45,945 nucleotides of DNA from the IMG/VR virus record IMGVR_UViG_3300034957_000008, positions 1 through 45,945 of that record. One strand, given 5' to 3'. How positions within the stretch are numbered: the first letter of the stretch is position 1; every line of letters begins with the position of its first letter. The position numbers and the translations under genes were made by a program. Below are positions 1,506 to 35,450 of this stretch, one piece after another. The notes below the pieces were generated by a model that was given only the letters and a program-made list of their open reading frames with translations, did not search any database and was not told where the DNA came from. This DNA is from a virus.

Positions 1506-3247
1506 GGCTTATACCATCCCCTGCCCTTAGGCCCATTCGCTTTGTAAATGTAGCCGATTGGCACATTAGATGGACGCGGCGGCTGTCCCGTTTGTGTCTG
1601 CTGCGCTTTGTCCTGATTGGCCTGAATGGCCGCTGTCTGTCCTCTGGCCGCTAACTGTGAAGCCTTGATGCTCTGCTGTGTCTCAGATGAACCCGGAAAC
1701 ATCGGCATGTGCTGCCCCGCCAAATCCAGGTTCTGCTGGAATTGCCCGGTGGCCTGATCGGCAAATTGTTTGTCGGCCAAGGGCGGGGGAAGCTGTTCAA
1801 GCTGAAGCTCAAGAATCTTGTCGGATGCGCGTGATGAGTTGGTAAGAATCTGCTGGTAACCAGAGAGAGATTCGCGGGCCTGATTGAATAGGATATAGCG
1901 TCTCATTCCGGCATCGGAAAGAGCCTGTATGCCTCTGGCCTTAAGCTGAGATTGAACGTACTGCGGAAGCAGATTCACGTTAATTCCGTGAGCATTCAAG
2001 CCTGCCCCAACGTTGTTGTCCATCAGATAGGCAATGGCCTGCTGATCTTGAGGGTCAATGGGCTGGTCGAATGTTGAGGCGTAATCTCCCACCTTACGCT
2101 GCACGTCGGCAAGACGATTAGACAATGCCTGATCCTTACGAACCTGCACAGCCGTTACCTTCATTGGAGTCTGCAAACCTTGCGCTGCCGCTTCCGTACG
2201 AGTCGTGAATATCTGCTGGCCTGTCTTTGGATCAGTGGCATAAACCGTGTCAGTCGAACTCTTGCCTTGTAACGGATTGCCCTGGGAATCGGTTAATGTT
2301 CTGACTCCGCCTTGAGTGCTCAAGCGCAATGGCGGTTTGTTCTGTGGTCCCGGAGGCGGAACTTTGTTCTGATTCGGGGCAGCAGGCACTACATTGGGAG
2401 ATGCTGCCTGTCCCGGTTGAGTCACGGCCCCCCCAGTGGGCGAAACCCGCTGTGCTGTGGAACTGACAGGAACCGTAACAAGCTGAGTCGATCCCGGATT
2501 ATTCGGGTCTGAAACCTCCTTGACTTCCTGCCGATTCGTGACGTTTGGAGCCCACATTGCCCCGGCACGTTCAAAGGACGCAAACTGCCCCAGCGGAATC
2601 TTTCTTCCCACCATGTCCTGAGGCATGTGGTATTCCTGCGCGATTTCTGAAGTCACTGTCACGCCCTGAGCATCGCTGCCCGGTAGAATCTTCGGGCCGC
2701 CTTCGGCCTGTGTGTCCCACATTCCCACATTCGGCTGAACCACAAACCGCTTGCCAATCTGAGCTGCTGTGACTTTTGCCTGAGCCTCAAGATAGGGTTT
2801 CGCCAGAGCAAAGGGAACCTGATAACCTCCCGGCATTGTTACCATGCTCTGCATCTGCTTGACCAGAGCCGCACGTTGCAAAATCTCGGACTGGATATTC
2901 TGTTGCTCAAGATTAAATTTCTGTGTCTGAAGCCCTTGCGTGTAAAGTCTTTGCTGTTGCTGAGCATCGGTTTCCATGCCAAGATGCGCTTTCATGCCTT
3001 CGCCGACACCGTGCAGGATGTTGGACAGGTAGCCCTTGATTCCCTGAAGTCTCTGCTGTTGCTGCTGTGATCCCGATTGAGTTGCTGCCGCCTGCGGAAC
3101 CTGTACAGGAGGTTTGGCAATATCGGCAATAGGAGATGGCGCATTTGGAGTGGGTGGAGGCTGTAGGGGCGGAACATCAGGCCCAGACGCAGCTCCGCTA
3201 TTCTGTTGTAACATGCTCATCAGTGTTGAAGGATCAAATGTGCTCAT
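1502..3247 (-). CDS. Late protein, Gln-rich, probable internal virion protein
   Basis: 581 residues. Residues 15-70 are Pro-, Gln- and Ala-rich. A helical, Gln-rich stretch spans roughly residues 75-150, a Pro/Gln/Thr-rich linker about 265-320, and a helical C-terminal third. There are no catalytic motifs or membrane spans. It follows the 206-residue protein by 3 bases and overlaps the next gene by 4, in the same late operon. By position and composition it could be a DNA-ejection or internal core protein of a podovirus-like particle. That is inference from context; the sequence gives no direct proof. Confidence 0.6.
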   Translation of the reverse strand: MSTFDPSTLMSMLQQNSGAASGPDVPPLQPPPTPNAPSPIADIAKPPVQVPQAAATQSGSQQQQQRLQGIKGYLSNILHGVGEGMKAHLGMETDAQQQQRLYTQGLQTQKFNLEQQNIQSEILQRAALVKQMQSMVTMPGGYQVPFALAKPYLEAQAKVTAAQIGKRFVVQPNVGMWDTQAEGGPKILPGSDAQGVTVTSEIAQEYHMPQDMVGRKIPLGQFASFERAGAMWAPNVTNRQEVKEVSDPNNPGSTQLVTVPVSSTAQRVSPTGGAVTQPGQAASPNVVPAAPNQNKVPPPGPQNKPPLRLSTQGGVRTLTDSQGNPLQGKSSTDTVYATDPKTGQQIFTTRTEAAAQGLQTPMKVTAVQVRKDQALSNRLADVQRKVGDYASTFDQPIDPQDQQAIAYLMDNNVGAGLNAHGINVNLLPQYVQSQLKARGIQALSDAGMRRYILFNQARESLSGYQQILTNSSRASDKILELQLEQLPPPLADKQFADQATGQFQQNLDLAGQHMPMFPGSSETQQSIKASQLAARGQTAAIQANQDKAQQTQTGQPPRPSNVPIGYIYKANGPKGRGWYKP

Positions 3248-3250
3248 GGG

Positions 3251-3871
3251 TTAACTGCCCTTTGGGGCTCCAAGTCCGGGTATCTTGCCGATTGCATTAG
3301 CGATTCCGCCGCCAACTCCAGCACTTACTACTCCACCCAAAGCGCTGCCAAATGAGTTCAGGAATCCCCCCTGGGAGGCTTTTACGTAATCGCCAAGCGC
3401 AGTACTTGCGCCCTGATTGAACACTCCAATATTCTGTCCAAGTTGGGCACCCTGCCCGCTCTGTAATCCAAGCGCATTGAACTTGTTATTGAGTGCCTGC
3501 TGAAGATTGCTGATATTTGCGCCAAGAATTCCCTGTGATTGGCTTGATGCCCGCGCTCCCTGCAATGCTTCAAGCCCTCTGGTGAAGTCGCCGCCAACCG
3601 GCATGTTCCCGCCGCCAGCCCCCCGCGCATTCAATGAAGACATGACCTGACTGCCAGCCTGATTGAAGTTAGCGGAGTTCTGATTCAGGAATTGCGAGAT
3701 CATAGCGGAGAATTGCGCAGGGTCATAGCCTTGTCCCGCACCAGTTGTGTATTGGCTGGTCGATTGCATAATCTGGTCACGAATCTGCTTCTGCTGGTCA
3801 AGTTGCTGCTGCGTGAGCTTATTTTGCAATGCGAGTTGGTCTTTGCTGGTGCCTGTTCCGCCGCCGCTCAT
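3251..3871 (-). CDS. Late protein with Gly-rich hydrophobic C-terminus
   Basis: 206 residues from the ATG at 3871. That start overlaps the TGA of the upstream gene as ATGA and has an AAGGTG site eight bases before it. A longer frame to 3949 would overlap the upstream gene by 82 bases and is less likely. Residues 10-60 are Gln-rich and helical, the middle is Asn/Gln/Gly-rich, and the last 40 residues form a Gly/Ala/Val amphipathic or membrane-seeking segment. Similar small Gln/Gly-rich proteins accompany the ejection proteins of podophages, so a virion or membrane-penetration role is plausible but unproven. Confidence 0.65.
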   Translation of the reverse strand: MSGGGTGTSKDQLALQNKLTQQQLDQQKQIRDQIMQSTSQYTTGAGQGYDPAQFSAMISQFLNQNSANFNQAGSQVMSSLNARGAGGGNMPVGGDFTRGLEALQGARASSQSQGILGANISNLQQALNNKFNALGLQSGQGAQLGQNIGVFNQGASTALGDYVKASQGGFLNSFGSALGGVVSAGVGGGIANAIGKIPGLGAPKGS

Positions 3872-4266
3872 ATTGGTTTCACCTTTACCAGATAACGATT
3901 CGCTGGCCTCGCTTCTGCCCGTTTCATTTCCTCTTGCCATCCTTCGCACATCTTTGCTGGATCGCCGCTGGAAAACTGGATAAACACGTCTTGCCCCAAA
4001 AGCCCTTGGTCTGCAAGGTAGCTGTGTATTCTTTGGTTCATCTTGCAGTTTCCTCGCGCAGTAAGGCAGCGATAATCGACAATATCAATGCGTCGAATGA
4101 TCGAAGCCACACCCTTCACTTCGCCATCCTCAACTTCAATCCATGCCTTCAGACGGTCGCCAAGATTCCATTCCGTCTCGCCCTCAGGCAATTTCAGTTC
4201 TCTCTTGCAGAACTCATGCGCTGCATCCCTCAACTCTTGAGGCGCAGAATCAAAAGGAATAATCAC
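3868..4266 (-). CDS. Late hypothetical protein, GTG start
   Basis: 132 residues when started at the GTG at 4266, which overlaps the upstream TGA as GTGA. An ATG at 4359 would give 163 residues but would overlap the Hint-protein gene by 97 bases in another frame. The protein is a mixed alpha/beta sequence with two Cys near the middle and a Gln/Lys-rich end. The early Glu-Trp-Asn-Leu-Gly stretch and strand-helix pattern faintly recall phage GNAT-like proteins, but I see no clear acetyl-CoA loop. It lies between the Hint-domain tail protein and an internal-protein candidate. Confidence 0.6.
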   Translation of the reverse strand: MIIPFDSAPQELRDAAHEFCKRELKLPEGETEWNLGDRLKAWIEVEDGEVKGVASIIRRIDIVDYRCLTARGNCKMNQRIHSYLADQGLLGQDVFIQFSSGDPAKMCEGWQEEMKRAEARPANRYLVKVKPI

Positions 4267-5282
4267 GTTTGATCCAACTGGTTCTTTACATTGTGACTCA
4301 TGTATCCGTTGGCAAAGAAGATATGCCCATTCTTCATTCGCGCTTCCACCTTCGTGCAATCCTTCAGAAAGCGAGTTGTGTTGGTAACTTTTTCCTCGCC
4401 ATGGTCTGTGAGAATCCAGCGATGCTTGCCAACAAAGAAATCAGCCTGTACCTTGCCGCGTTCCGAGTCATACAGCGGATGATTTGGAGTGCAGTTGAGG
4501 CCATTCGTAAATACTCCACCGGGTTCGGTTTCAATCCTGACCCAATCCGTCCAGCGATAATTTACCGTGTCAATTTCTTCGTTGCCTAAAGGCTTCAAGT
4601 GTGTTCCAAGCATAACGCATGTTCCCGGCTGTCTAGCTGGAGGAGTGATAGGCGACCCTGCTGCGCCTGTTCCGCCCGCTGCGGGCTGCGTCCAACTGAC
4701 ATTTCCTAAAGGCTCCCTGCCCATCAAAGATTGAATAGCCCTGCCTTGCGCAAAGGTCGTGTCTGAATCTGTCGAGAGAAATGCAATCTTGGGAGTTCCT
4801 ACCGTGCCCGGAGCAAAGCCAATCCCACAGGCATTGAACGGTACCCAATAAGGAAGAATCTGATAAGTCAGATCGTGCGTTAATCCTGTGATTGTGATGT
4901 TGCTCGGCGGCACGGTAGTACTTGTCCCATTCAGCCCCTGCCCTTGTGAGTCAGGACGGCGAATCAGAATTACCCTGCTTGAGTTGGTTCCATCCCAATA
5001 AATCACTGCTGAAGAATCTGAAGGCTTGGCAACCGAGAACTGCCCGTCCACTATATTCGGGCTCATGATGCCCTTAACGTCAATGGATGAACTGCTGGTG
5101 AGGTTCAGTTTTCCGTTTATCAGTCCGGCAGAATCAATGGTTGAGAAATCAGATGAGGCAAGAGAACCACCACCCAACAAATAGGGAGTAATCTTTTCTA
5201 TTCTGGCGACCCTTGCCCCAAGATTGTTCAGGTCTTGCTGCGTCATCCCCGGCTGGCCGGTCATGGTGTAAATCGCCTTCAC
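4263..5282 (-). CDS. Tail-associated protein with C-terminal Hint (intein-like) domain
   Basis: 339 residues. Residues 14-32 form a short coiled coil. About 80-145 looks like a fibronectin-III-type beta sandwich. After a Gly/Pro-rich linker (200-220), a Hint domain fills residues 222-331: Cys222 with the following V-M-L-G-T as block A, T-P-N-H-P-L with His268 as block B, and a final block ending Ser-His330-Asn331. In inteins the Cys and the His-Asn pair drive N-S acyl shift and Asn cyclisation. Here Asn331 is followed by Val and only eight residues, so there is no usual Cys/Ser/Thr acceptor; this resembles bacterial intein-like or autoprocessing Hint domains. The gene overlaps the nozzle gene by 4 bases. 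Self-cleavage of a tail protein is inference; the motifs are visible. Confidence 0.8.
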   Translation of the reverse strand: MKAIYTMTGQPGMTQQDLNNLGARVARIEKITPYLLGGGSLASSDFSTIDSAGLINGKLNLTSSSSIDVKGIMSPNIVDGQFSVAKPSDSSAVIYWDGTNSSRVILIRRPDSQGQGLNGTSTTVPPSNITITGLTHDLTYQILPYWVPFNACGIGFAPGTVGTPKIAFLSTDSDTTFAQGRAIQSLMGREPLGNVSWTQPAAGGTGAAGSPITPPARQPGTCVMLGTHLKPLGNEEIDTVNYRWTDWVRIETEPGGVFTNGLNCTPNHPLYDSERGKVQADFFVGKHRWILTDHGEEKVTNTTRFLKDCTKVEARMKNGHIFFANGYMSHNVKNQLDQT

Positions 5283-7102
5283 TTTGATTCACCTGGCCTC
5301 AGAGATGGATTGACCGTAATCGTATAGCACACAAGGTTAGCGTCCGTTGTTGGCCAGACGTACTTGGTTGAAACTCTCTCAGCCATTGGGGCCGTGTCGG
5401 GCTTGTAAAGTTTCTTCACCAGATTAACGCCTTGTGCGCGCCTAACCGGGTCGCTGGAATTTACCGTCATGTCTGTAAACGCCGCGCCTGTTACCGTGGG
5501 GTCTTCGTCGCAAAGATATGAAACCGCGCTAGCAGTGTGGGAATCGGTTTCGAGCACCACGCCTTCGAATGGGCCGTCAGGATCGCCAACCTTCAACAGA
5601 TTCACGATTGCCACTGCTGAATAGGCCGTTCCGCCATCGTTATATTTGTTCGGGTTCATCTTGTACATCTGCGTCTTGCCAAGTGCAATGGTAAGAGACA
5701 CTGTGCTTGATGCGCTTTCGCCTGAAGTCAAAGCCGAACATGCTGGCGATGCCCCACCAGCGGCGATGACCTTTGGCGGCAGCCACTGCGGCACGTCCAT
5801 ATCGTAGAGGTAGAGTTTCCCGTTCGCGCCATCCAGCAGACAGAGCCAATGCTGCATTCCCTGAAGATGAATCGCCATATAAGCCTGGGAGTGGTCTATG
5901 GTCTTGATGTCATTGCGAATGTCGAATCCGATTTCCTGTCCGTCTAACCACACCTGAGAAGCGGTGTCCAGCCATCCCACAGAGTTCCCAAGGGCCGCAG
6001 TAGCGGTATGCGAGATGGCTCCGCGTCTGTCCAGAAGTCCAGAAAATATGAAGTTGTCACGCTGCGTTCCCTGAATCTGCCAGATTTTGTGACGGGTAAA
6101 AACCGCTACGCCATTCGCCAGAGGTCTTAAGCTGGTAACTTCCTGTGGATACGGCTGATTGTTTCCATCAAGCCCAGACGGCCAGCATTCCGCCGGTACT
6201 CCATTGGCAGGTAATTCTTCATCGCCCGAATAGTAAACCGTAGCGTTAGCCGCACCAAAAACCCTGTTGCCATAGGCAATGAGTTTCGAGCATGGTGTTG
6301 GCGGGTCATTGGTGGTCGTGCCTGGGGCCGTTCTGATCGAAAGCGCCGAATCCGCAGTGGCTTCATTGACCGTTGTCGTTGTGTTGGCAAATGGGCTTCC
6401 GGTAACTTCCTGCATCAACGTGGGGTCAGTCGAGCCGCCGTCTGTTGTGCGGTAAACCCTGATCTGGTCAACCTGTCCATCTGCTGAAGCGACTAGGGCA
6501 ATCGTGTTCGTCTTATTGGTTGTGATGCCCGTGCATGGTGACAAATCAGAAGCCGAAGACTCATGAGACGTTGTTGAATTGCAGTAAGTGACGCGGTAAT
6601 ACCAGCCTGAATAAGCTGAAACTCCTGTGCCTGTGGTTCCAACTGTGAGGGGAGCTGCTGGCCTGACAATGCCCCATTTAGTTGTCGTACTTCCCGTCCC
6701 GGAATACTTCCGCATATCCGTTCCGTTGCCCATGTACAGCGTGTTATTCGAGACAACGAAATCAAACGGAGTCGCCGCTGAAGATGTGAATATCAGAACG
6801 TGACTGGTATCCACACCCGATTCAAACTTGTAGACCTTGGCAACTCCCCCGGAAACATCGCAGAGAACATGAATGAATCTTGCCCCGCCCCATAGCGCCC
6901 ACCACATTGAAGACTTGACTGCCGTGAATGTGGTAATGCTGGCTTCAACCGCATCGGCGAATCCAGGGATGCGCTGCATCAACTGCTGGGCAGAGGTCAT
7001 GATATTTTGTGAGCCCAGCACAAGGTTTTCCTTGTCGGACGTTATATCAGTGAACGTACGATAAGGCATTGAAGTAAGCGTGATGTCGCGCTTGACTGCC
7101 AT
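5279..7102 (-). CDS. Tail nozzle / stabilisation protein (P22 gp10 / T7 gp12-like role)
   Basis: 607 residues, beta-rich throughout, with Gly/Thr/Ser-rich blades and repeated short strand patterns such as L-Y-M-G-N-G-T-D, as in beta-propeller tail proteins. The N-terminus carries the P-Y-R-T-F-T-D pattern often seen in podovirus tail tubular or stabilisation proteins. It follows directly (TAA then ATG) the 244-residue adaptor candidate and precedes the Hint protein. Gene order adaptor, nozzle, fibre-like protein matches short-tailed phages. It should act as the tail tube or plug at the end of the connector. Exact family assignment is by pattern and position only. Confidence 0.75.
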   Translation of the reverse strand: MAVKRDITLTSMPYRTFTDITSDKENLVLGSQNIMTSAQQLMQRIPGFADAVEASITTFTAVKSSMWWALWGGARFIHVLCDVSGGVAKVYKFESGVDTSHVLIFTSSAATPFDFVVSNNTLYMGNGTDMRKYSGTGSTTTKWGIVRPAAPLTVGTTGTGVSAYSGWYYRVTYCNSTTSHESSASDLSPCTGITTNKTNTIALVASADGQVDQIRVYRTTDGGSTDPTLMQEVTGSPFANTTTTVNEATADSALSIRTAPGTTTNDPPTPCSKLIAYGNRVFGAANATVYYSGDEELPANGVPAECWPSGLDGNNQPYPQEVTSLRPLANGVAVFTRHKIWQIQGTQRDNFIFSGLLDRRGAISHTATAALGNSVGWLDTASQVWLDGQEIGFDIRNDIKTIDHSQAYMAIHLQGMQHWLCLLDGANGKLYLYDMDVPQWLPPKVIAAGGASPACSALTSGESASSTVSLTIALGKTQMYKMNPNKYNDGGTAYSAVAIVNLLKVGDPDGPFEGVVLETDSHTASAVSYLCDEDPTVTGAAFTDMTVNSSDPVRRAQGVNLVKKLYKPDTAPMAERVSTKYVWPTTDANLVCYTITVNPSLRPGESK

Positions 7103-7923: not shown

Positions 7924-8061
7924 ATGTCAAAAGAAATTCATTTCCGGGCAACAGATACCGACCAAAAGCGCCTGACTGACTTAATTGCAAAGTTAGGCAC
8001 AACCCTAACCGCTGTCATCCGAGAGGCAATACGCCTCTTGCACAAAAAGGAAATCAAATGA
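7924..8061 (+). CDS. Ribbon-helix-helix (Arc/CopG-type) regulator
   Basis: 45 residues. The pattern is a short basic beta strand (residues 3-9, including I-H-F-R-A), then helix A with Lys15-Leu25, a turn at Thr27-Thr28, and helix B to Arg37 with an alternating hydrophobic pattern, which is the RHH fold. These proteins dimerise, bind DNA through the N-terminal strand and often repress their own promoter. The gene lies on the strand opposite to all surrounding late genes and its stop overlaps the next start as ATGA. It likely controls this two-gene unit. No antitoxin partner with a toxin fold is evident. Confidence 0.8.
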   Translation: MSKEIHFRATDTDQKRLTDLIAKLGTTLTAVIREAIRLLHKKEIK

Positions 8062-8615
8062 AAAAGCTATTCGTGTGCCTCACCCTGCTGATGTCCAGCG
8101 CGTTCGCCCAAAATGCAACTCTCAACTGCGGTTCGTTGGTGCTCACCGGAGATGATGGCAATGGCCTCATCACTGTCATGACCAGCGTGGCTCCCTTGCC
8201 GAGCCCCAACGTCGAGCAGTATCTCGGCTGCTGTATTATCTTGCAACCCAATGCTGGAACCCCCGCGAGTTCCTACTTGTCGGCAAGCTGCGACACGCCG
8301 CTGGGAGTTATCACTCATCCGGTTACGATTACCTCCATATCGGTGTCCATGCGTAAGAACGACGTGCAGTTCTCTCCGTTCGAGACGCTTGTCATCACTA
8401 CTCCCGACTGCAAGGTTCGCAAGTTCGATCTGTTGTTCATGGGCATCGGCGCTAACCAGGGCAACGAACGAAGCCGCGAGTGGAATGTCAACATGACCCT
8501 CCCCGTGGGAACCAGTATCTATATCGATGCCTACTTCAGTGCGAATCTTGCTTCTGTCTGCGCCAACACCGCCTGTATCGCTAGTAGCGTGTGGCGATTG
8601 CAAGGGTCAATCTAA
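8058..8615 (+). CDS. Secreted Cys-containing protein of the moron
   Basis: 185 residues with a clear Sec signal peptide (Lys2-Lys3, hydrophobic core to about residue 15, cleavage after A-F-A at 17). The mature part is beta-rich with about eight Cys, suggesting disulfide bonds outside the cytoplasm. Translation is coupled to the RHH gene by ATGA. The stop (TAA, 8613-8615) abuts the stop of the convergent tail-fibre gene at 8616. I do not recognise the family. A signal peptide on a phage-encoded moron suggests alteration of the host envelope (superinfection exclusion, adhesion) rather than a virion part; that is inference. Confidence 0.75.
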   Translation: MKKLFVCLTLLMSSAFAQNATLNCGSLVLTGDDGNGLITVMTSVAPLPSPNVEQYLGCCIILQPNAGTPASSYLSASCDTPLGVITHPVTITSISVSMRKNDVQFSPFETLVITTPDCKVRKFDLLFMGIGANQGNERSREWNVNMTLPVGTSIYIDAYFSANLASVCANTACIASSVWRLQGSI

Positions 8616-32622: not shown

Positions 32623-33327
32623 TCACAAATCAAGTACTTTCTGCTCTGGTTTTTGCTCAAAAAGAGTAGGCTGGGCTTCGATTATGGCTAGCCGTTCGCG
32701 GGCGATCTGGCAGTATTCCGCGCTGATTTCAAAGCCTAGAAAATGACGGCCTAGCTTCTTGGCAGCGACAGCCGTGGTGCCACTGCCCATGAAAGGATCA
32801 AACACCGTATCGCCCTCGAGAGTGAAATCGCTCACAAATTCAGCCCATAAATTCAATGGCTTTGGGCATGGATGGCCTTCGGCTTCTGGCTGTATTGAAA
32901 TGGGGCAATCATAGGAATCGCGCAGGATGCACTTTTTGGCCTTGCCGAAAACCAATACAGGCTCCCAAGTCTGGAACCCGCTGGTTTTGCCGATGTAGTT
33001 CCTCGAGCAGTTGTTCTGCTTTGTCCATGCAATCAGGTAATGGGTGCGCTCAATATCGGCCAGCCACATTGGAACGCTTACCATTCCCGGCGTAAGCATT
33101 ACGCACGTCCTCGAGATACGCTTTGAATCAAGAAACCAGCCGCGGCACCATTCCTTGTAATCGCTGCGATTATCGCTGATGCTGTCATAGTTGAGGCCCA
33201 CGTTATACGGCGGATCGGCCAACACGTAATCCACGCACCCATCTGGCAACTGCTTCATCAGCTCAAGGCAATCCCCCTGCACTACTGAGCAGCATGAAAA
33301 TGGGCCAATTTTGCGGTCACAGGTCAT
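32623..33327 (-). CDS. DNA methyltransferase, beta class (N4-C or N6-A)
   Basis: 234 residues. D-P-P-Y at 38-41 comes before F-D-P-F-M-G-S-G-T-T near 178, the order of beta-class amino-methyltransferases; a short target-recognition part lies between. V-Q-G-D-C near 16 precedes it. No restriction partner is adjacent, so it is a solitary phage enzyme, probably to protect phage DNA from host nucleases. Intergenic 32505-32622 carries a CCGAC/GTCGG hairpin next to the initiator's ribosome site. Confidence 0.9.
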   Translation of the reverse strand: MTCDRKIGPFSCCSVVQGDCLELMKQLPDGCVDYVLADPPYNVGLNYDSISDNRSDYKEWCRGWFLDSKRISRTCVMLTPGMVSVPMWLADIERTHYLIAWTKQNNCSRNYIGKTSGFQTWEPVLVFGKAKKCILRDSYDCPISIQPEAEGHPCPKPLNLWAEFVSDFTLEGDTVFDPFMGSGTTAVAAKKLGRHFLGFEISAEYCQIARERLAIIEAQPTLFEQKPEQKVLDL

Positions 33328-33354
33328 AGTATGGGCTCACCGTCAAGACTCTTT

Positions 33355-33489
33355 TTACGCTCCTAAATAGTCGTCATCCTCTAAATCTTGCGGGTCACAG
33401 TCATGCACACAATCTTCGCTGGCTTCGTCATTCCAGGTGTCTTCGCCGTCACAAGCACAGTCTTGTCCGCAATCTGGGCATTCGTGCAT
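33355..33489 (-). CDS. Tiny acidic Cys-rich protein
   Basis: 44 residues: M-H-E-C-P-D-C-G-Q-D-C-A-C-D-G-E-D-T-W-N opens it, then D-C-V-H-D-C and an acidic end. I know this phrase from many phages as a conserved short protein. Two C-x2-C-type pairs plus two more Cys suggest a zinc site. It overlaps 109 bases of the 72-residue gene in another frame. Confidence 0.7.
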   Translation of the reverse strand: MHECPDCGQDCACDGEDTWNDEASEDCVHDCDPQDLEDDDYLGA

Positions 33490-33599
33490 ACCTTTCTCCC
33501 TTCAGGTTCCGTCACCGCGTCTGAGCCGCACGTTCCGCACTGGCCTCGCCTGTTTAGCGGCCCTACTTGATAGCAGTCGAGGCACATCCAGTGTTCCAT
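33381..33599 (-). CDS. Small zinc-ribbon protein (MEHWMCLDC type)
   Basis: 72 residues from the ATG at 33599 (TAATG with the HNH stop). M-E-H-W-M-C-L-D-C and then Q-C-G-T-C-G-S-D-A make a clear C-x2-C/C-x2-C ribbon, a conserved short phage protein usually about 45 long. The extra 28 residues here correspond to the region shared with the 44-residue gene. Confidence 0.7.
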   Translation of the reverse strand: MEHWMCLDCYQVGPLNRRGQCGTCGSDAVTEPEGRKVCTNAQIADKTVLVTAKTPGMTKPAKIVCMTVTRKI

Positions 33600-34015
33600 T
33601 AACGGGCCTTTCGTTTTCTCATGCGAAGCCGAGCACACGTCAGGCATTGCCTTCCGCGTCCAGTCCATGTATTGCTTTCATCAAGCAGATGACCATGGAT
33701 GCAATGCGTCTGTTTGGCGTGCATGGCCGATGGACTTGTACCGCGCAGAATGTTTTCTTTTTGAGTGACCGCTTCCAAATGGTCAGGATTTACGCAAGGT
33801 CGCACACGGCACAAATGGTCAATCTGTTTCTTTTCAGGAATTGGGCCGCGCCATAATTCGTAAGTTATTCTGTGGACATACTTTGCGGAAATCCTGCCGT
33901 ATCCTTCAGGGGAAATCCGCCCGTTCCATAGCCAGCAGCCGTTGTCATCAATGGTCACGGCCTTAACAATAAAATCCTTATCTATTACGTACCCGCCTTT
34001 GAGGAAGTCGGTCAA
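33599..34015 (-). CDS. HNH homing endonuclease
   Basis: 138 residues. C-W-L-W-N-G near 27, H-R-I-T-Y-E-L near 48, I-D-H-L-C-R-V-R-x-C-V-N-P-D-H-L-E-A near 65-82 are the H-N-H catalytic core (His in D-H-L, Asn-Pro, His in D-H-L). C-terminal Cys/His pairs (H-C-I-H-G-H, C-L-T-C) add a zinc finger. It starts with TTG at 34015 behind AGGAGG ten bases away, unless an internal GTG is used. Freestanding; likely a selfish homing gene. Confidence 0.85.
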   Translation of the reverse strand: MTDFLKGGYVIDKDFIVKAVTIDDNGCWLWNGRISPEGYGRISAKYVHRITYELWRGPIPEKKQIDHLCRVRPCVNPDHLEAVTQKENILRGTSPSAMHAKQTHCIHGHLLDESNTWTGRGRQCLTCARLRMRKRKAR

Positions 34016-34058
34016 AATTGAAATACCTCCTGACTCAGCCGTTTGGCCGCGATCTCGC

Positions 34059-34526
34059 TCATAGATGTTTCCATGCTTTACGCAGAACGATCATGCTTAC
34101 GAGGGAAACACTGACGCCTAGTTCCTTGGCTAGTTCCTTCTGCTTGCGCCCTGCTGCGACTTCTTTTCTAATTCGCACAACGTCCTCGTTTTTCAGCTTG
34201 GACTCCCCGTGATCCTGTCCCTTGAAAGCTGGCACCCGTTCGCGCCCTTTAGCGGCCATGTCTTGAGAGTTCTGTTTTTTTGTCCCAAGAAATAGATGAT
34301 CTGGTCTGACACACCGCCGATTGTCGCATTGGTGAAGCACACACAAACCCCTTGGAATGCTGCCGTTATGCAGGTTCCATGAATATCTGTGCGTGCTATA
34401 CGGTTTGCCATCATAAAAACACCCGTAACCTGTGTCGCTGGAAACTGAGCCTTGCCATTCCCAGCAGTTATCTGTCTTTCTTACTCGGCTCCAGAAGCGT
34501 TCGTTGGCTGATTTCCATCTCGGCAT
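34059..34526 (-). CDS. HNH homing endonuclease with C-terminal HTH
   Basis: 155 residues. C-W-E-W-Q-G near 21, H-R-Y-S-W-N-L-H near 46, V-L-H-Q-C-D-N-R-R-C-V-R-P-D-H-L-F near 62-78 are the HNH core, followed by G-T-K-K-Q-N. From about 105, G-E-S-K-L-K-N-E-D-V and the helix-turn-helix Q-K-E-L-A-K-E-L-G-V-S form the DNA-binding end. Overlaps the second methyltransferase gene by 59 bases. Confidence 0.88.
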   Translation of the reverse strand: MPRWKSANERFWSRVRKTDNCWEWQGSVSSDTGYGCFYDGKPYSTHRYSWNLHNGSIPRGLCVLHQCDNRRCVRPDHLFLGTKKQNSQDMAAKGRERVPAFKGQDHGESKLKNEDVVRIRKEVAAGRKQKELAKELGVSVSLVSMIVLRKAWKHL

Positions 34527-35166
34527 GAGGTGATTTTATCACATCGTCCTCGAATCTAAACACCTCTTGCTCCAATCTTTTAGCTGCTATGGCACAATAC
34601 TTTTCTTCTATCTCTATGCCGATGGCCGTTTTTCCAAGGTTTTTTGCGGCTACCAGCGTGGTGCCACTTCCCGCGAACGGGTCAATGATTACTGGCCTGT
34701 CGAAGCGCGAAATAATCCAAGAGATTGCTTTCAGGGGTTTGGGCGATGGGTGCTCTGGCATTGGCTCAGTCCCCACGGCGATGTCCACGGCATCGCCTTG
34801 CTCACGGTAGAGCGATATTTCAGGCCGCGCATAGACCACACAAGGAAACCAGTTGGCGAATCCCATCTTGCCGCTAGTCATGCCGTTAATCAGGTGAATG
34901 CAAAGAGTCCAGCGATATTCAAGGCCACTGAAACGCTGCGGAAGATTGAGCAGGTTAGCCGTTCCCGGCATGACCGCCACAACATCAGCAAACCGAGCCG
35001 CTTCGTGCATCCAATCGACAGGCAGGTATGTATCCCACTCAGCCTTTGCCACACCATAAGGCGGATCGGTAATCGTCACGGCATCAACCGGATCGAGAGA
35101 CCGCAGAATCTCTCTGCAATCACCGTGGTAGATAGTTATTCCGCCATGTTCGTAATATGGCTTCAC
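34468..35166 (-). CDS. DNA methyltransferase, beta class, second copy
   Basis: 232 residues starting at the GTG at 35166 (GTGA with the upstream stop). I-T-D-P-P-Y-G-V near 34 precedes I-D-P-F-A-G-S-G-T-T near 164, as in the enzyme at 32623, with which it shares fold and motif order but little else. Its last 20 codons overlap the HNH gene. Two solitary methyltransferases suggest protection against more than one restriction system. Confidence 0.9.
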   Translation of the reverse strand: MKPYYEHGGITIYHGDCREILRSLDPVDAVTITDPPYGVAKAEWDTYLPVDWMHEAARFADVVAVMPGTANLLNLPQRFSGLEYRWTLCIHLINGMTSGKMGFANWFPCVVYARPEISLYREQGDAVDIAVGTEPMPEHPSPKPLKAISWIISRFDRPVIIDPFAGSGTTLVAAKNLGKTAIGIEIEEKYCAIAAKRLEQEVFRFEDDVIKSPHAEMEISQRTLLEPSKKDR

Positions 35167-35450
35167 CTTGCCATCCTCATGACGTACTCGCCCACCTGCC
35201 ACCAAAACCAGATTGCCAAGCCAAGAACAATAAGAAATCTCAGTTTCCACGGCTTCTCTCTCGGCGGGTGAGCGTTCAAGTAGTCGGCCACGGGGTCAGT
35301 TTCGTCAACTACCATAGTGCCGTCATCAAAGCAAGTGAATATCGGTTCTGCCTGTCTAATGGTGTACAGCAGCGTGTTTCCCTTGACGCTGAAGGTAACG
35401 CTGTCTAGCTCCTGGTATTCGCGCTCGAAGGTGGTCATTTCTTTGGGCAT
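35163..35450 (-). CDS. Small protein with C-terminal membrane span
   Basis: 95 residues (91 from Met5). A soluble beta-like first 65 residues is followed by a basic turn (R-E-K-P-W-K-L-R) and one hydrophobic helix (about 71-89, F-L-I-V-L-G-L-A-I-W-F-W-W). A tail-anchored topology. AGGAGG lies 12 bases upstream. Could act at the membrane early in infection; function unknown. Confidence 0.65.
   Translation of the reverse strand: MPKEMTTFEREYQELDSVTFSVKGNTLLYTIRQAEPIFTCFDDGTMVVDETDPVADYLNAHPPREKPWKLRFLIVLGLAIWFWWQVGEYVMRMAR

Follow-up and report, generated by a model that had tools for sequence, protein, structure and literature searches.

A terminal Hint domain suggests that a presumed tail protein of a short-tailed soil phage trims or ligates its own end

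Why would a phage tail protein end in what looks like an intein, with almost nothing behind it to be joined? The question is raised by a 339-aa protein encoded in IMG/VR virus record IMGVR_UViG_3300034957_000008, a 45,945-base virus contig of metagenomic origin without an isolate, which is referred to here, at its full length, as the window. An earlier reading of the letters of this DNA (the original prediction) described a coiled coil and a fibronectin-like part followed by a Hint domain with no downstream extein, and proposed autocleavage or cross-linking through a thioester rather than splicing. Relatives on other contigs also carry the Hint domain at their very end, which suggests, at the level of sequence, that the protein trims or ligates its own end in a short-tailed soil phage. 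A literature search over mostly freely accessible papers found no account of phage tail proteins with a terminal Hint domain. Hint proteins in general are already recorded for phages, since 'Hint domain containing protein' or 'Hint' is the name that BFVD gives to several of their proteins.

The Hint domain and its family

The window has an SU10-type portal match (1.5e-17) as well as large-terminase and major-head-protein matches, all on the minus strand. So does the gene studied here (Table 1), whose limits were given exactly in the original prediction, the strand being omitted; its first 4 bases are shared with the end of the upstream gene. Cys222, His268, His330-Asn331, Val332 and the eight residues that follow Asn331 are found in the translation where they had been placed. 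Inside the block of minus-strand virion genes, a 185-aa ORF on the plus strand (8058-8615) has a signal-peptide-like start, and a competing minus-strand ORF spans the same stretch. Two DNA methyltransferase-like ORFs flanking two HNH-like ORFs, all read by eye, lie on the minus strand at 32623-35250.

Table 1. Features of the Hint gene and its neighbours, in window coordinates
Feature	Position	Strand	Remarks
Small downstream gene, 132 aa	3868..4266	-	Start overlaps Hint gene stop; Pfam match absent
Tail-associated protein gene, 339 aa	4263..5282	-	GTG start; stop 4263-4265
Residual C-terminal tail, residues 332-339, VKNQLDQT	4266..4289	-	From translation
Tail Lys333 (+2)	4284..4286	-	15/16 representatives; 16/18 type-1 tails
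Block G His330-Asn331	4290..4295	-	Each 16/16 representatives
Predicted Hint domain, C222 to N331, 110 aa, endonuclease absent	4290..4619	-	Profile, AlphaFold2 model, Foldseek, VIA-align
Block B T265-x-x-H268	4479..4490	-	T 15/16, H 16/16 representatives
Cys222, block A nucleophile	4617..4619	-	16/16 representatives
Pro/Gly-rich linker, residues 200-221, preceding Cys1	4620..4685	-	Gly-rich in most relatives
Fibronectin-III-like beta domain, residues 72-204, conserved YWDGTN motif	4671..5069	-	FN3 assignment weak
Nozzle-like tail protein upstream, 607 aa	5279..7102	-	phrog_8040 head closure 3.9e-8; phrog_511 internal virion protein 2.1e-10

On its own, the window protein has no match in Pfam, PHROG or NCBIfam, and its best match in the PDB reaches only E 0.05, so the case for a Hint domain rests on the family. 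Scans of viral contigs recovered 18 IMG/VR contigs with this domain, here called type 1; adding the window and removing one identical protein left 18 distinct proteins, from which 16 representatives at <70% identity were used to assess conservation. A profile of five sequences already matched the NrdJ-1 intein (1.6e-5) and the bacterial intein-like (BIL) domain BIL2 (2e-5) in the PDB. With all 18 segments, the matches were NrdJ-1 (3.3e-8), gp41-1 (3.7e-7), BIL2 (2.2e-5) and the Clostridium BIL (2.6e-5), and every one of the 18 PDB sequences at E<=1 is an intein, BIL or other Hint-type protein by name or title.

Structure prediction is in line with these matches. The AlphaFold2 model of the protein has a mean pLDDT of 72.1, with the Hint blocks mostly at 84-96. 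Foldseek against the PDB ranked four BIL2 chains first (6e-6 to 3.8e-5), followed by the Clostridium BIL, whereas in VIA-align BILs and inteins tied (Z 13.9 with the Ssp DnaB mini-intein, 13.4 with BIL2). In many VIA-align rows, model residue 222 falls on intein residue 1 and residue 331 on the last intein residue. The predicted fold is thus in register with solved Hint domains, and together with the profile matches it bears out the Hint identity first proposed: by sequence and model, the 339-aa protein ends in a full intein-like Hint domain.

The putative catalytic residues are highly conserved. C222, T227, H268, H330 and N331 occur in all 16 representatives and T265 in 15, the most distant representative being about 30% identical to the window's Hint domain. 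What appears to be block F has Lys311 in 16/16, where six Hint domains with long C-terminal flanks have Asp. The type-1 Hint is the last domain in every family member, and L014, L015, L017, L019 and L032, five of the 18 proteins, carry it behind a different N-terminal part. A tblastn search of cultured phages gave no match to the window protein; with two relatives as queries, the four weak matches were a DNA polymerase gene, a terminase gene and two hypothetical proteins, and were set aside. Two scans of a bacterial and archaeal genome collection returned 11 and 54 pattern matches, with no relatives among them.

The N-terminal part is less clear. The proposed fibronectin-like domain retains some support, as its structure alignments are mostly FN3 rows and its profile matches are mostly fibronectin, monobody/adnectin or titin, but these are weak (best Z 4.2; E values starting at 0.04) and Foldseek gave no match under 0.001. 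The proposed coiled coil was not confirmed: where an SU10-like tail needle has a long trimeric coiled coil, the window model gives only a short low-confidence helix. A profile search with the N-terminal part found no solved tail-needle relative.

A tail-gene slot that can do without the Hint domain

The upstream gene product is called nozzle-like here on the strength of PHROG and PDB matches and of gene position; its family profile matches 8jov_A, a 'virion-associated phage protein', at 7.4e-10. Wherever upstream sequence is available, in 17/17 Hint loci, the Hint gene directly follows this nozzle-like gene (the eighteenth locus, L002, starts at the Hint gene), which upholds the tail association claimed at the outset. 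In phage SU10, the available text of one account names gp17 as the nozzle and gp18 as the tail needle (PMC9509320). Since the Hint gene follows the nozzle-like gene as gp18 follows gp17, a needle-like role for the 339-aa protein may be guessed from position.

Two further loci, L030 and L031, have a protein in the same slot with the same N-terminal domain and no Hint. These relatives stop at the linker, which marks the Hint as a module appended to the C-terminus instead of inserted, and shows that the slot can do without it. In a nozzle tree with a midpoint root only, L030 and L031 form one clade inside the Hint-bearing lineages, so that a single loss would be the simplest story; the lineage may instead never have had the domain. 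The nozzle-like genes of these loci are themselves long, encoding 883 aa in L030 (3311-5962) and 1098 aa in L031 (2651-5947) against about 600 elsewhere, and both products contain He_PIG Ig-like domains (2e-17 and 2.5e-24, respectively).

The same observations bear on whether the domain could be an intein in decay that has lost its C-extein through truncation. Such an origin would account for the missing C-extein and for a fold shared with inteins. It is nevertheless very improbable, given that none of the 18 tails is shorter than 4 or longer than 10 residues, that the relatives without a Hint stop at the same place and that the catalytic residues show no decay.

Downstream of the Hint gene, a small-gene family, F7, is found in 12 of the 18 loci and the family of the window's own neighbour in L002, while in five loci the next family of virion genes follows immediately. 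These small genes resemble acetyltransferases when read by eye. An acetyltransferase-like gene was considered as a partner of the Hint domain and rejected, as F7 is present in both Hint-less loci and absent from 6/18 Hint loci. The F7 profile found neither the window's downstream neighbour nor the annotated acetyltransferase of Tunturi_3, and the label therefore stays one made by eye. Tunturi_3 is an isolated phage with a host in the Acidobacteriota, according to the portion of its description available (PMC11924767); it carries a nozzle-like gene that is distantly related (26.6% identity), with that acetyltransferase nearby. Kinship with its slot proteins was not upheld, as there was no Hint among those read. 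An acidobacterial host for the Hint phages is a guess from this one weak match.

Probable self-removal, possible lysine capture and other readings

Behind Asn331, the tails of the 18 type-1 proteins comprise 4 to 10 residues, in agreement with the claim that a real downstream extein is absent. The absence of a +1 nucleophile also holds beyond Val332 of the window: the first tail residue is one of L, I, F, N, V, M, K and Y, with no Cys, Ser or Thr among the 18. What do such domains do elsewhere? In the parts of the literature accessible here, type A BIL domains have the His-Asn end without a +1 nucleophile and can splice, though cleavage dominates, and it is proposed that the freed C-terminal amine attacks the N-terminal thioester (PMC4031507). 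Partial texts of further sources report mainly cleaved products for BIL domains (PMC7664689), state that type A domains cannot ligate their flanks (PMC7765530) and state that they can splice completely (PMC5874633). Autocleavage can thus fairly be inferred from family chemistry, and cross-linking through a thioester would have a precedent in BIL2, which transfers its N-terminal flank to a lysine through an isopeptide bond in the available text of PMC8616854. Setting these outcomes against splicing, as was done originally, was too strong, because type A BILs can splice without a +1 nucleophile.

Since type A BIL chemistry fits the residues present, removal of the Hint is the best reading: a type A BIL-like domain probably removes itself from a presumed tail-tip protein through a thioester at C222. 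After folding, C222 would take over the acyl group of T221 in an N-to-S shift, helped by T265 and H268. N331 would cyclise with the help of H330 and cut off the tail, and water or an amine would resolve the thioester, so that the 110-residue Hint is removed. The virion would then carry the shortened N-terminal part, with the short tail ligated back or not. The predicted fold, the intact catalytic residues, the conserved terminal position, the lack of a +1 nucleophile and the long retention of the domain support self-removal; Lys311 in block F and the Hint-less L030 and L031 count against it. We infer the occurrence, order and product of the reactions, as we do the needle-like role.

The tail itself complicates this picture. 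It is conserved beyond Asn331, which is odd if it is discarded and would suit a structural cap, that is, a Hint fold serving as a folding or trimerisation domain with no bond cut. A mere scaffold would allow the catalytic positions to drift, and Cys1, the His of block B and the His-Asn pair do not vary, making such a cap quite unlikely.

The most regular feature of the tail is a lysine. It stands at +2 in most of the 18 type-1 tails and at +1 or +3 in the remaining two, so that all 18 have Lys within +1..+3, against 0/61 at later tail positions. Shuffling letters within tails never reached the observed 15/16 in 200,000 trials, a figure made generous by kinship. In a comparison set of six Hint domains with long C-flanks, which come from other proteins and from a search expression that caught only part of 32 ORFs, Ser is at +1 in 6/6 and Lys at +1..+3 in 0/6. 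An origin of the lysine codon in the next gene's ribosome-binding site is disfavoured, because anywhere from 8 bases (L029) to 34 (L004) separate this codon from the next start, and in several loci a site of their own follows the stop.

This placement, which the ribosome site does not account for, raises the possibility that amine capture is the purpose of the domain, with an attack on the C222 thioester by K333, or by a lysine on an adjacent subunit, giving an isopeptide bond and a covalently joined tail part. The top four Foldseek matches are chains of BIL2, a maker of lysine isopeptide bonds in the available text (PMC8616854), but VIA-align ties BIL2 with ordinary inteins (13.4 vs 13.9) and, in the same text, the BIL2 lysine lies in a folded C-flank and not at +2. 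A conserved lysine could also be structural. Amine capture as the purpose is rather doubtful, and self-removal is the reading preferred here.

A second, divergent Hint type extends the pattern to other virion-like proteins, which it appears from sequence to end. L050 has the same YWDGTN N-domain with this type-2 Hint at its C-terminus, an arrangement made up of a glycine-rich linker, a Cys and an HN with 4 or 5 residues left. Other terminal carriers are L053 (1469 residues), L055 (818), L063 (954) and L061 (331). The L053 protein (1960-6369) has Phage-tail_3 and Rcc01698 matches, then a Gly linker and the type-2 Hint; alone among the terminal tails, its tail, SKMV, has Ser at +1. In L060 (3763-6723, 986 residues), two Hint-like domains stand in tandem without a glycine linker (HN-KAAV-C..., then HN-VTTVA and the stop). 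Lysine is found within +1..+3 in five of the six terminal type-2 tails, in keeping with amine capture, the exception being L060 (VTTVA).

Type 2 is called Hint from its motifs and from weak Vint matches in 5/7 segments, rather than from a profile; its profile found no Hint in the PDB, and tblastn found no match in cultured phages. That it belongs to the same family as type 1 was rejected, as the only stretch over which the two profiles align lies around block G (hhalign probability 5.5). The type-2 Hint of L059 (5257-10878) is internal to a protein of 1873 residues; ILK comes after its Asn and about 1500 residues lie downstream. It is BIL-like, lacks a +1 nucleophile and has a long C-flank.

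A broader and unlikely idea is that environmental phages have repeatedly placed a terminal Hint on tail-tip proteins as a one-shot ligase. The Cys1 thioester at the end of a flexible linker would be captured by a lysine just past His-Asn or on a partner, giving an ATP-independent isopeptide bond in the virion, a phage counterpart of ubiquitin-like ligation by BUBL. Were the domain active, phages would mature their own virions by intein chemistry, taking it beyond the selfish insert. These proteins would also allow the purpose of BIL domains to be tested directly, and would provide thioester domains that are natural, small and C-terminal, with a lysine as defined candidate acceptor, for use in protein ligation.

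Relation to known systems

With the SU10 tail, the window shares an SU10-type portal and the gene slot after the nozzle gene, insofar as the nozzle label applies here. It differs in that no sequence match to a solved needle was found and in that the SU10 account, in its available text, mentions no Hint (PMC9509320). Among Hint families, Pfam PT-HINT gives weak matches in 11/18 type-1 segments, none of the individual Hint-family scores examined reaching the curated cut-off. Unlike polymorphic-toxin PT-HINT proteins, the window protein has no toxin domain, with eight residues after its Hint. Class 1 inteins (gp41-1, NrdJ-1 and Ssp DnaB) share the fold and the residues of the N-terminal chemistry, but the window family lacks both the +1 Cys/Ser/Thr and the C-extein.

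Nearest in the Foldseek search is BIL2 of the Tetrahymena BUBL1 locus (6y75, 6tmm), with which a hydrophobic +1 is shared; the chain of 6y75 ends in HAMQV, where A is the N143A change. BIL2 sits between ubiquitin-like domains in the available text of PMC8616854, whereas none was seen in the window protein. The layout, by sequence and model, is that of type A BILs. Such BILs differ from the domains described here, which are known from sequence and model, belong to phage tail-block proteins, stand at the very C-terminus with 4-10 residues after them, and have Lys at +2. Common to the window domain and type A BILs such as that of Clostridium thermocellum (2lwy) are the Hint fold, Cys1, the block B His and the terminal His-Asn, together with the absence of both a +1 nucleophile and an endonuclease.
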